Shown here one piece after another: positions 2,687-5,255 of a stretch of 34,433 nucleotides of DNA (the first letter of the stretch is position 1; each line of letters opens with the position of its first letter). The translations under genes and the position numbers were made by a program. The DNA is from Deltaproteobacteria bacterium. Lineage in GTDB: Bacteria; Desulfobacterota; Desulfobacteria; Desulfobacterales; Desulfobacteraceae. The stretch spans positions 1 to 34,433 of the forward strand of contig JAQIBP010000070.1 of assembly GCA_027858995.1 (NCBI GenBank), given 5' to 3'. Under the pieces are notes generated by a model, which was not told the origin of the DNA, did not search any database, and worked only from the letters and a program-made list of their open reading frames with translations.

Positions 2687-3754
2687 TCACAGAACAGATA
2701 AAAAATATCTGTTCTGGCGCAGTAAATGGTCTGTGAGTGTAATAGCCATCATAGATTCACAGACCATGTTAATTCTTGGGATAGCACATATATCATGACG
2801 CCCTTTGGTTGATATCTCACTTGGCCTGCCCTCTACATCAATAGTAACTTGAGTTTTCAATATTGAAGGTATGGGCTTAATATGAACCCTTGCAATAATA
2901 TCATCTCCATTTGAAATTCCAGCCAGAATCCCGCCTGAATTATTTGTTTGAAATCCAGTTGGCAAAATTTGATCACTGTTTTCAAAACCTGTCATTTGAG
3001 AAGCTGAAATTCCAGCTCCTATTTCCACAGCCTTGACTGCACCGATACTCATCAAAGCCTTGGCTATATCGGCATCAAGCTTGTCAAAAACAGGTTCTCC
3101 CAAACCTGCAGGTACATTAGATACTCTGATTTCAACAACTCCTCCAAGAGAATCTCCCTCTTTTTTTATATCTTTAATTTTTTTTATCATTTTGTCGGCA
3201 GCATCCAGATCAGGGCATTGTAAATCATTTGTATCTTTTTGGGATATGTCTTCAAAATTTACAGCTTTAATACCACCAAGTTCCAATGTATAGGTTTTTA
3301 TTTTAATATTATATTGATCAAGTACTATTTGGGCGACAGCACCTGCTGCAACCCTTGCAGCAGTTTCCCTGGCAGAAGCCCTTCCCCCTCCCCTATAATC
3401 CCTTATGCCATACTTAGCCTGGTAGGTATAGTCTCCATGTCCTGGTCGAAAAAGTGTGGCAATATCATCATATGATTTTGATTTTGCATCCTGGTTTTCA
3501 ATAAAAATCATAATGGGAGTACCAGTTGTCTTGTTATTGAAGATACCTGACACAATAACTGACCTGTCCGGTTCACTCCTTTTTGTGCTGGAAATCCCTA
3601 CCCCTGGTTTTCTTTTATCAAGAGCTTTTTGTATGACATTTTCACTGATTACAAAACCAGGGGGACAGCCTTGAACTACAACACCGATACCTTTGCCGTG
3701 AGATTCTCCAAATGTGGTAATATTAAATGCTTTTCCCAGGGTACTGCCCGACAT
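2687..3754 (-). CDS. aroC: Chorismate synthase
   Basis: AroC converts 5-enolpyruvylshikimate-3-phosphate to chorismate, the last step of the shikimate pathway, using reduced FMN. The 355-residue length is normal. Signatures are the N-terminal GESHGKGIGVVVQGCPPG, the RPGHGDYTYQAKYG segment followed by RDYRGGGRASARETAARVAAG (about residues 110-140), and the C-terminal GRHDICAIPR. The gene is last in aroE-aroK-aroC; its first codons overlap the end of aroK by 32 bp, implying translational coupling. The last codons form a perfect hairpin (see the separate entry). No anomaly in the catalytic regions. Confidence 0.97.
   Translation of the reverse strand: MSGSTLGKAFNITTFGESHGKGIGVVVQGCPPGFVISENVIQKALDKRKPGVGISSTKRSEPDRSVIVSGIFNNKTTGTPIMIFIENQDAKSKSYDDIATLFRPGHGDYTYQAKYGIRDYRGGGRASARETAARVAAGAVAQIVLDQYNIKIKTYTLELGGIKAVNFEDISQKDTNDLQCPDLDAADKMIKKIKDIKKEGDSLGGVVEIRVSNVPAGLGEPVFDKLDADIAKALMSIGAVKAVEIGAGISASQMTGFENSDQILPTGFQTNNSGGILAGISNGDDIIARVHIKPIPSILKTQVTIDVEGRPSEISTKGRHDICAIPRINMVCESMMAITLTDHLLRQNRYFLSVL
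2690..2716. other. Perfect 11-bp hairpin at the 3' end of aroC
   Basis: CAGAACAGATA (2690-2700) and its exact complement TATCTGTTCTG (2706-2716) flank a 5-bp A-rich loop. It encodes the last residues of AroC (the stop is 2687-2689) and lies between the convergent 104-aa gene and aroC. No U-tract follows on either strand, so it is not a typical intrinsic terminator; it could still act as an mRNA 3'-stabilising structure. Confidence 0.5.
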
Positions 3755-4265
3755 CCTTTAATCTCCTGTAAATTATGTTAACAATTTCTTTAGGGTTATG
3801 GATTGTTGTATCAATCCTTACATGAGCGCTTTTTTTATACAAGGGATTCCGTAAGTTTAACATCTCTTTTGTTTCTGTCACAAGATTGTTGTTTGTCAAA
3901 GATGGTCTTGACAAAGATGTTCTTGAATCACTGCTTAATCTTTTCAATATTGTTTTGATATCAGCATCAAGCCAGATGGAAAATCCATTTTTTTTTATGA
4001 ATTTTATGTTGTCAGGATCAATAATAATACCACCACCTGTGGCAATAACTATATTTTCATAATTTTTTGTATTTAAAATTGTCTCTTTTTCCAATAACCT
4101 GAATCTGTTCCATCCCTGTTTTTCAACAATTTGCCTGATATTTGATCCTGTTTTTTGTTCAATGATCTGATCTATATCAAAAAAATCAAAATTCAGCCCT
4201 CTGGCAAGAATTTTTCCAATGGTTGTTTTTCCGGTACACCTGTAACCTATTAAAAATATTTTCAT
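3723..4265 (-). CDS. aroK: Shikimate kinase
   Basis: The 180-residue protein phosphorylates shikimate at the 3-hydroxyl using ATP. A Walker A motif GYRCTGKTTIG lies at residues 7-17, followed by FDIDQIIEQ with the shikimate-binding aspartate, the RFRLLEKETI segment carrying the substrate arginine, and the ATGGGIIID glycine motif near residue 77. A lid region rich in Arg/Ser follows. The gene sits between aroE and aroC and overlaps aroC by 32 bp. Before the mobile element arrived, aroE would have ended about 27 bp upstream of this start; now the distance is about 130 bp. No strong ribosome-binding site is visible at the ATG, so its translation may have depended on coupling to aroE. Confidence 0.93.
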   Translation of the reverse strand: MKIFLIGYRCTGKTTIGKILARGLNFDFFDIDQIIEQKTGSNIRQIVEKQGWNRFRLLEKETILNTKNYENIVIATGGGIIIDPDNIKFIKKNGFSIWLDADIKTILKRLSSDSRTSLSRPSLTNNNLVTETKEMLNLRNPLYKKSAHVRIDTTIHNPKEIVNIIYRRLKDVGQYPGKSI

Positions 4266-4292
4266 GAAACACTGTTTTTATTGTTTTATGCT

Positions 4293-4295
4293 CTA
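4293..4295 (-). other. Fossil stop codon of the pre-insertion aroE
   Basis: If the 139-bp element and one copy of its 8-bp target duplication are removed in silico, the aroE reading frame runs straight into this TAG, giving a C-terminus that ends in HRHH. The site is now untranslated spacer. Confidence 0.7.
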
Positions 4296-4302
4296 ATGGT
4301 GC

Positions 4303-4310
4303 CTATGTAG
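4303..4310. repeat. Left target-site duplication of the MITE
   Basis: CTATGTAG abuts the left end of the inverted-repeat element; the identical 8-mer abuts its right end at 4450-4457. Confidence 0.8.
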
Positions 4311-4449
4311 TGTCTGACCGAAAACCTGATAATTTGTTCAAGTACAAGGCGGTAAAAAATTTTAACCACAGACATACAAATAGTATTTCGAGGATTAAAA
4401 TTTTTTACCAACGCCGTAATTGGGCAAATTAGCGGTTTTCGGTCGGGCA
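4311..4449. mobile_element. 139-bp miniature inverted-repeat element (MITE) in the 3' end of aroE
   Basis: The element begins TGTCTGACCGAAAACC and ends GGTTTTCGGTCGGGCA, near-perfect terminal inverted repeats. The similarity continues inward for about 57 bp per arm (matching blocks include TAATTTG and GTAAAAAATTTTAA), leaving a centre of roughly 25 bp with no coding capacity. Identical 8-bp CTATGTAG copies flank it, the expected scar of a cut-and-paste or copy-in transposition. It encodes no transposase, so it must have been moved in trans by an element with the same ends. I cannot assign the family; 8-bp duplications are known for IS66, IS6, ISL3 and IS1595 families among others. It supplies the current stop codon of aroE. 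Confidence 0.85.
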
Positions 4450-5255
4450 CTATGTAGTATTGCCTCTTGTACTGTTTTAATCTCAGGAGTTATACCTGTC
4501 CATAATTTAAACTGTGCTGCTCCCTGATGCATGAACATGGACAATCCGTCAATAACATTACATCCCCTGTTTTGGGCTTCTGCCAACAGCCTGGTTTTCA
4601 AAGGATTATAAATGATATCCATGACAATCATTCTCCGGTGTAATAAACGCGATGGAAAAGGAGAAACTTTAATATCAGGATACATACCAACAGATGTAGT
4701 GTTTATAATAATATCAGCCTCAAATTTATCTCTTTTATTAATTTCATCCATTGAGATAAAATCAGCATCATATTTTAATGCCAGAGTTTTACCTTTTTCA
4801 ATGGATCTGTTGATGATGACAAGCCTGCCTCTTTTTTCTTTTATCCCATGAGCAACAGCACGGGCAGCACCTCCTGCACCAATAATACAAACTTTTTTAT
4901 TATTGATACCAAAGTGTTTTAAAGGTTCAATCGCAGCCATAAAATCTGTATTAAAACCTGTAAGTTTTGTGTCTGAGTTTACAATAGTATTAACAGCACC
5001 TATTTTTAATGCGTTCTTATCAATGTGGTCAAGACAATCCATAACAGATTCTTTATATGGAATTGTCACAGAAGCTCCTTGAATATTTAAAGTTTTAATT
5101 GCTGTAACAGCGCTGGATATATTATTTATTTCAAAGGCAAGGTAGGCTGCATTAATTTTATATTGTTCAAACCATGCATTATGAATAACTGGGCTTTTAG
5201 AATGTTTTACTGGTTTGCCAAAAATACAATAAAGGTCAGTGTTTGAAGAAATCAT
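4395..5255 (-). CDS. aroE: Shikimate dehydrogenase (NADP+), C-terminus rewritten by a MITE
   Basis: AroE reduces 3-dehydroshikimate to shikimate. The 286-residue protein shows the shikimate-binding KHSKSPVIHN motif (about residues 17-26), IPYKESVMDCLD with the catalytic lysine, the nucleotide-binding GAGGAARAVAHGI (about 125-137), NTTSVGM, and the C-terminal GLSMFMHQGAAQF. All core motifs are intact. The last 18 residues after EAILH are encoded by the inserted inverted-repeat element: the current tail is HSARPKTANLPNYGVGKKF, while the ancestral frame would end HRHH. Because the change follows the last conserved helix, the enzyme is probably still active. The gene is first in aroE-aroK-aroC and lies 42 bp downstream of the CorC-like gene. 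Confidence 0.94.
   Translation of the reverse strand: MISSNTDLYCIFGKPVKHSKSPVIHNAWFEQYKINAAYLAFEINNISSAVTAIKTLNIQGASVTIPYKESVMDCLDHIDKNALKIGAVNTIVNSDTKLTGFNTDFMAAIEPLKHFGINNKKVCIIGAGGAARAVAHGIKEKRGRLVIINRSIEKGKTLALKYDADFISMDEINKRDKFEADIIINTTSVGMYPDIKVSPFPSRLLHRRMIVMDIIYNPLKTRLLAEAQNRGCNVIDGLSMFMHQGAAQFKLWTGITPEIKTVQEAILHSARPKTANLPNYGVGKKF
4450..4457. repeat. Right target-site duplication of the MITE
   Basis: CTATGTAG, identical to 4303-4310, immediately follows the right terminal inverted repeat. It also encodes the Leu-His of the AroE tail. Confidence 0.8.

Follow-up and report, generated by a model that had tools for sequence, protein, structure and literature searches.

Organization of the aroE locus

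The window analysed here is the whole stretch of 34,433 nucleotides of contig JAQIBP010000070.1, from a Deltaproteobacteria bacterium of the Desulfobacteraceae. Below, G000 denotes the window's own genome, G017 a sister genome and L numbers denote loci. The aroE and aroK genes lie on the minus strand, and a short inverted-repeat element forms the 3' end of aroE:

3723..4265, minus strand: aroK, shikimate kinase, downstream of aroE (Pfam SKI, E 2.1e-47)
4293..4295, minus strand: TAG closing aroE after removal of the element plus one TATGTA (joined flanks)
4395..4451, minus strand: 18 codons plus TAA stop contributed by the element (translation; the first base of the Ser codon is that of the duplication)
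4395..5255, minus strand: aroE, shikimate dehydrogenase, 286 aa with the donated tail (TIGR00507, E 4.3e-81, and NF001319, both above cut-offs)

As read, AroE ends in ...LHSARPKTANLPNYGVGKKF, where the donated 18 residues run from S through F. The gene enters the element from the right and meets a TAA after 18 codons, within the AATTTTAA tract of the core; translation confirmed the original prediction, made from the sequence of this locus, that the element supplies the last 18 residues and the stop. When the two flanks are joined into an empty site, AroE would end in ...QEAILHRHH*, 27 bp short of aroK, compared to a present gap of 129 bp. This agrees with the predicted excised frame (ending in HRHH, TAG at 4293-4295, about 27 bp from aroK) and with the claim of a roughly fivefold wider aroE-aroK gap. 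The tail of this core enzyme was also said to have been 'rewritten'. The new tail is real, but the word is too strong: three residues (RHH) are replaced by 18, all of them past the last helix of an AlphaFold2 model built with an alignment. In this model the last AroE helix spans residues 259-269 and residues 270-286 have pLDDT below 50, and the tail looks like a short, loose, probably unstructured extension. Because the gene is intact, AroE presumably still functions and would tolerate the addition.

The comparison with relatives, suggested together with the prediction, went in its favour. The closest AroE found (72-74% identical) is that of G017, where aroE carries no element, there is a 4-nt overlap with aroK, and the tail differs (LWTGISPVSMDQVVVSK); the aroE end there has diverged too far for the target 6-mer to be recognized. 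The donated tail was seen in none of the 12 congeneric AroE that were aligned, from 18 congeneric loci, and these end within several residues of the joined empty-site end. The aroE-aroK spacing was read in 14 of the same 18 loci, those matched on the plus strand. Direct succession of aroE and aroK was seen in G000 (window 3723-5255) and G017; aroK lies 1.2-1.4 kb further on in 11 of the 13 other congeners read and was not seen in the locus for 2.

Bounds, ends and target duplication of the element

Comparison with other copies gave the following organization:

4304..4309, no strand assigned: left TATGTA target duplication (sequence; 6 bp is the length favoured by class A elements)
4310..4450, no strand assigned: class A-ended MITE, 141 bp (copy comparison and target-duplication test)
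4310..4326, plus strand: terminal inverted repeat GTGTCTGACCGAAAACC (end pattern matched exactly; same end type on ISNCY elements L089, L109 and L371)
4333..4429, plus strand: fold-back core common to MITEs with unlike ends (covariance model R1, 112.3 bits, E 3.6e-24; the aroE-site copy is among the 29 chosen copies used to train R1)
4434..4450, minus strand: terminal inverted repeat GTGCCCGACCGAAAACC (end pattern matched exactly)
4451..4456, no strand assigned: right TATGTA target duplication (sequence; 6 bp, as on the left)

In the window the element reads GTGTCTGACCGAAAACC...GGTTTTCGGTCGGGCAC, with GTG...CAC outermost and TATGTA on either side. As originally described, inverted arms lie between two identical copies of CTATGTAG, at 4303-4310 and 4450-4457. 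The element itself stands; its size, given as 139 bp, is 141 bp (4310-4450). It is short and carries no transposase gene, its longest internal open frame having 47 codons. Folded as single-strand DNA it reaches -44.3 kcal/mol, compared to -13.1 +/- 2.7 for 200 shuffled sequences, none of which was as low. No promoter-like (sigma-70-like) or terminator-like site was found in window 4200-4560.

The duplication had been taken to be 8 bp long. Other copies carry TATTTA, TATCTA, TAAATA and similar 6-mers directly outside GTG...CAC. Among 65 class A elements, a set that includes overlapping alternative bounds, 6 bp were identical on the two sides in 22, where shuffled pairs gave 3.2, and differed in the rest; identity at 7, 8 or 9 bp was found in 0/65. 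Since both the flanks of other copies and this test show 6 bp, and none show 7-9, the class A duplication is 6 bp and not 8, with TANNTA preferred. The outer C and G of CTATGTAG equal the last and first base of the element through coincidence.

Dispersed copies and ISNCY partners

The element had been presented as a non-autonomous repeat with further copies. At E <1e-40 it occupies 17 places in its own genome, itself included, and it has a match in 19 of the 38 genomes of the relatives set, own genome counted. The search for a full IS with matching ends, also proposed at the outset, yielded L089, L109 and L371. Neither outcome that was to count against the prediction, the same tail in relatives without the element or the lack of any other copy, occurred: the G017 tail differs and copies abound. 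The element is short, has ends in common with an autonomous element, is flanked by a target duplication and exists in many dispersed copies, as a MITE does.

On the short G000 contig C110, L089 is a full element of 1892 bp with ends GTGCCTGAACGAAAAGT / GTGTCTGAACGAAAACC, encoding a 494-aa protein that is an ISNCY-family transposase by NCBIfam NF033593 (E 2.9e-158, 527.2 bits compared to a curated cut-off of 325). Its left duplication is uncheckable because the contig starts 2 bases ahead of the left end of the element. L109, from another genome of the genus, has the same end type and a protein 56% identical; its 6-mers, TACCTA and TAGTTA, are two letters apart. In other genera, L371 is an ISNCY element with class A-type ends and TAATTA on either side, and L372 an ISNCY element with GTGTCCGTCCAGAAA-type (Ap) ends and TAGATA on either side; L370, L371 and L372 also exceed the ISNCY cut-off. 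The partner ends match those of the MITE, whose resemblance to the partner is confined to the terminal ~17 bp, the interior being the fold-back core. The terminal repeats are shared with autonomous ISNCY elements, and the MITE would be moved in trans by an ISNCY-family transposase.

Two further observations concern this family. G071 holds 18 copies (L375 and 17 others) of a 462-aa ISNCY-like gene (129.8 bits, below the cut-off) with ends TAGTATCYGCTGAATTTC. At L089 (1895-3082) the ISNCY copy sits just upstream of a gspF/pilC-like gene, as read by eye from the translation; elsewhere, a MITE of the same class as L089 caps a GspE/PilB-like ATPase.

A second gene capped by the element

That such elements donate protein tails, as was predicted, is borne out by this G000 ATPase (TIGR02538, E 2.6e-152, yet 508 bits compared to the model's cut-off of 676). 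Its C-terminus, VTFIDSARPETANLSNYGVGKKF, closes with nearly the same 18 residues as AroE, the terminal ones being SARPETANLSNYGVGKKF. The G017 counterpart, an 89% identical gene, ends in VTFIENRGT, and its DNA, ACATTCATAGAGAACAGAGG, is the unfilled target. The G000 site reads ACATTTATAGATA, element, TATATAACAGAGG, with two 6-mers (TAGATA and TATATA, one letter apart) compared to one in G017. This site gives the direct filled/unfilled comparison that is missing for aroE.

Frame analysis covered 157 elements flanked by at least 260 nt on each side and used open frames of at least 80 codons, which are not proven genes. Of these elements, nine bring an incoming open frame to its stop after at least 4 of their own codons, the G000 ATPase being one such case, and 2 let the frame run through. 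In G000, where 27 elements were bounded and 20 loci remained without bounds (some being the same copy twice), 3 of the 27 close an open frame after at least 4 codons. Similar tails, ETFAKCPLLLNSSVRLKF and ETFAKRPLLPNSGVRLKF, close open frames of two further genomes, in each case contributed by a class C element. The aroE case is a new example of an already known process of tail donation.

A widespread fold-back core

The central imperfect hairpin of about 97 bp (4333-4429) is spread far more widely than the ends of the element. The original prediction had missed that this core is common to MITEs with quite different ends. In G000, model R1 gave 94 rows, corresponding to 74 distinct places by hand count. 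Under stricter filters, R1 detected the core within the order in 102 of 146 genomes, which represent 72 of 104 genera; of 247 genomes taken from the phylum, 43 carry it, and 38 of these 43 are listed outside the order. A pattern scan of named genomes returned at least 114 stretches with the core; among the matches listed are Desulfobacterales, Desulfobacteraceae, Desulfobacula, Desulfobacter postgatei, Desulfosediminicola flagellatus, Desulfococcaceae, Candidatus Desulfaltia and bins named only Deltaproteobacteria, Proteobacteria or Pseudomonadota. Two queries of plasmids with the core gave no match.

The stem is upheld by paired changes: both sides changed in 66 cells compared to 22.2 in shuffles, and 96.2% of cells are paired compared to 30-52% when the alignment is slid, these counts leaning towards a structure derived from the same alignment. 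Rfam gave no convincing RNA family, the best match having E 0.0039 and 27.3 bits compared to a gathering score of 195, and the best of a second Rfam search E 0.02 and 32.2 bits compared to 50.

Several related structures were observed in G000 and elsewhere. Small hairpins (e.g. GTGAGCATACGCTCCTCTTCGAGC, CCCTAAAGGGCAGAAAC) are nested at varied points in the arms and cores of G000 copies (L012, L015, L022, L028, L306, L307, L324, L339, L340, L345, L350). G000 also holds a more distant core, built on a GTAC stem (CAACCGGAGTGTACT...AGTACATGAGGATTG) and bounded by still other ends (L341-L344, L347-L349, L351-L353); one copy of it, queried on plasmids, gave no match. Also seen were very short elements, roughly 37-74 bp in length, that carry class A, B or C ends and hardly any core or none at all (L095, L096, L099, L303, L304, L316, L317). 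Of these, L303 and L304 look like internal deletions because half a core is kept.

Six end classes on one core

The core was found between at least six types of terminal repeat, whose consensus sequences were built from arms of modal length only:

Class A: GTGYCYGAMCGAAAACC
Class Ap: GTGTCCATCCAKAAATG
Class App: GTTYCYGTAGAAAAACG
Class B: GACAGGYTGTTACA
Class C: GAGACCTTTGMAAAAYG
Class D: GAGCCASTTTCAAAACG

Ends of the same class stand on both sides in 190 of 258 distinct core copies (C 82, A 52, B 20, D 20, Ap 13, App 3), and no hybrid element with two different end classes was found among the 258. When only the 235 copies with enough flank are counted, 184 are bounded by one class at both ends and the flanks of a further 13 pair strongly; the remaining 38 match a class on one side (27) or on neither (11), several of these 11 showing degenerate or other ends by eye. 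Conversely, elements found by their ends contained the core in 52/65 cases for A, 14/15 for Ap, 3/3 for App, 25/25 for B, 84/87 for C and 17/17 for D, shares that are inflated because loci were mostly gathered for holding the core or the MITE.

The duplication depends on the class. Besides the 6 bp of class A, Ap shows 6 bp (identical in 6/15, 0.8 expected), C shows 5 bp (50/87, 0.8 expected) and D shows 4 bp (13/17, 1.0 expected); no length stands out in the 25 class B elements. The geometry is shared. From the end to the central motif, a left arm of 51 nt is the commonest in all six classes (A 47/52, C 74/82, D 20/20, Ap 11/13, App 3/3, B 11/20), and at least 152 of the 190 two-sided elements measure 141-144 bp. 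An A-rich stretch lies between end and core in the end types. G000 by itself holds classes A, B and C; at least two two-sided classes occur in 5 of 127 genomes, most of which are sampled by few copies. Matches to class C ends numbered 270 in G103, 239 in G043 and 124 in G053; G121 lacks class C ends, yet has at least 28 scored cores.

The ends of classes B, C and D would be used by transposition machineries different from that of class A. No autonomous partner of these three classes was found among inverted end pairs 0.8-2.8 kb apart in the gathered loci. On visual reading, the long frames inspected between B, C or D end pairs resemble host genes (a response regulator, a hydrolase, a histidine kinase and others), and those of L302 are likewise host-gene-like.

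Exchange of ends or divergence

To compare cores with ends, distances, a tree and AU tests were computed, leaving out the 68 of 258 core copies without a two-sided class. Near-identical cores can bear unlike ends: L157 (C) agrees with L158 (A) at 83 of 87 positions and with L259 (D) at 84 of 87, and the aroE-site copy L001 (A) agrees with L033 of G017 (B) at 78 of 87. On a tree of 186 cores, built on about 90 columns and with 11 of 183 inner branches strongly supported, the end class changes 27 times, compared to a minimum of 5 and a shuffled mean of 93.4. Cores mostly track end class, distances in G000 being 0.12-0.18 within a class compared to 0.29-0.38 between classes. Class A cores of G000 are at 0.295 from A cores of other genomes and at 0.285 from other classes at home; the corresponding values are 0.202 and 0.308 for B, and 0.300 and 0.381 for C. 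Ends have probably changed several times on a common core, separated by long intervals of stability. As the spacing is constant, new ends seem to have been written in register and not joined at random, and the A-rich stretch is a plausible switching point.

Slow divergence of the end classes by point changes from one MITE and its transposase, with no exchange, deserves the closest comparison. Spacing and length are the same in all classes, and the constant spacing and the lack of hybrids (0/258) fit divergence as well; A and Ap ends, moreover, are both found on ISNCY elements with TANNTA targets. Uncorrected AU tests of single clades do not reject A (p 0.067) or D (p 0.199), whereas C (p 0.036) and A+Ap+App (p 0.0155) speak against it, as do A-ended copies inside groups of C-type cores, such as L158 next to L157. 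The duplication length also differs by class (6, 5, 4, none), and different duplication lengths point to different transposases. We consider divergence without exchange rather unlikely.

Alternatively, the core could be an independent mobile palindrome that inserts mid-hairpin into existing MITEs, so that its sharing would be convergent. The smaller hairpins that sit inside elements at varied points, and the nearly coreless elements with the same ends (L095, L096, L099, L316, L317), speak for this. It should, however, vary the spacing, whereas the 51-nt left arm is kept in most copies of five classes and in 11/20 of the sixth. In addition, L303 and L304, coreless elements of class B, still contain half of it and look like deletions, and same-class ends lie on both sides in 184/235 copies, with pairing flanks in 13 more. 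A core that jumps by itself seems improbable to us.

We give slightly less credit still to the possibility that the hairpin is kept for a host function (a 3'-end RNA structure, an sRNA or a protein site) with mobility secondary. The paired changes that uphold the stem and the many central bases that are invariant, or nearly so, in the 29 aligned copies speak for it; however, no convincing Rfam family was obtained, copies carry transposon-type duplications, copy number differs widely between genomes (with counts up to at least 28 per genome) and window 4200-4560 holds no terminator-like or sigma-70-like site. Finally, a native origin of the AroE tail, with the element present through a coincidence of frame, is hardly credible: aroE is open and intact as read, but the 12 aligned congeneric AroE end without this tail near the joined empty-site end, and a near-identical tail closes an unrelated ATPase in the same genome.

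Our preferred reading, which we hold to be probable, is that the ISNCY-moved 141-bp MITE in the aroE end is one end-variant of a wider hairpin-core family with alternative ends. An ISNCY-family transposase would act in trans on the MITE and insert it into a TANNTA target (TATGTA) at the last aroE codons, with 6 bp duplicated; translation would then run on for 18 codons to the TAA of the AATTTTAA tract, giving the AroE tail. Across the family, a conserved core at fixed spacing would be combined with alternative terminal repeats serving different transposition machineries. Existing hairpins probably received new end types by in-register copying, perhaps via template switching or conversion at the A-rich stretch. 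We propose that the element spreads likely because a hairpin of such size is a good substrate, and that gene capping is a likely side effect of insertions near gene ends. The broader idea that the hairpin core, almost constant in size, is a lasting replicator, spread in Desulfobacterales and other orders by repeatedly acquiring the ends of unrelated transposases, is put forward more tentatively, as a possibility that we do not favour outright.

Relation to known systems

The comparisons below rest on excerpts of the cited papers. The closest parallel for tail donation is with QMITE1 and QMITE2 of Coxiella burnetii, MITEs that sit at the 3' ends of genes and lend the protein either a stop or new residues at its C-terminus (PMC5896051); the aroE case is likewise a short MITE at a gene 3' end creating a new C-terminus. 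QMITE2 duplications are 7-9 bp, in an unrelated host, compared to 6 bp for the aroE-site class, and the excerpted QMITE account describes no core common to several end types (PMC5896051). Rickettsia palindromic elements (RPE) are palindromes of about 150 bp that enter genes and add a peptide, and are reported to lie in frame within genes (PMC10969869). Here too a palindrome of similar size adds a peptide to a gene product. Unlike with RPE, AroE is terminated inside the element, and more generally 9/157 elements end a frame and 2/157 are read through.

As regards the transposase, the IS1202 family, once placed within ISNCY, has DDE transposases of 394-507 aa, and its subgroups show duplications of 3-5, more than 15 or 0 bp, with outer ends 5'-TGT in the ISAjo2 type (PMC10132070). 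The partner described here resembles IS1202 in transposase size and ISNCY filing, and differs from it in the 6 bp seen for A and Ap elements, L371 and L372 and in its GTG ends. REP palindromes are units of 20-40 bp that bear a GTAG or CGTC tag and are associated with HUH enzymes, and some tyrosine transposase genes of REP systems carry differing inverted repeats (PMC3733652). The likeness is that of abundant hairpins; unlike REP/RAYT, the present elements are mostly 141-144 bp, with target duplications and GTG...CAC or the other listed ends. In the open-licence literature, outside which most subscription papers lie, we found no published core common to several end types.

Implications

MITEs are usually seen as relics bound to one parent insertion sequence. 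Should the core persist through changes of ends, a non-coding hairpin would be able to outlast any single transposase and change vehicles. Such a core also makes it testable why one hairpin of one length (141-144 bp) succeeds so widely. At the level of the genes, aroE and the ATPase, the latter with an unfilled site in the sister genome, clearly exemplify how mobile DNA can add one standard peptide to the end of ordinary proteins.
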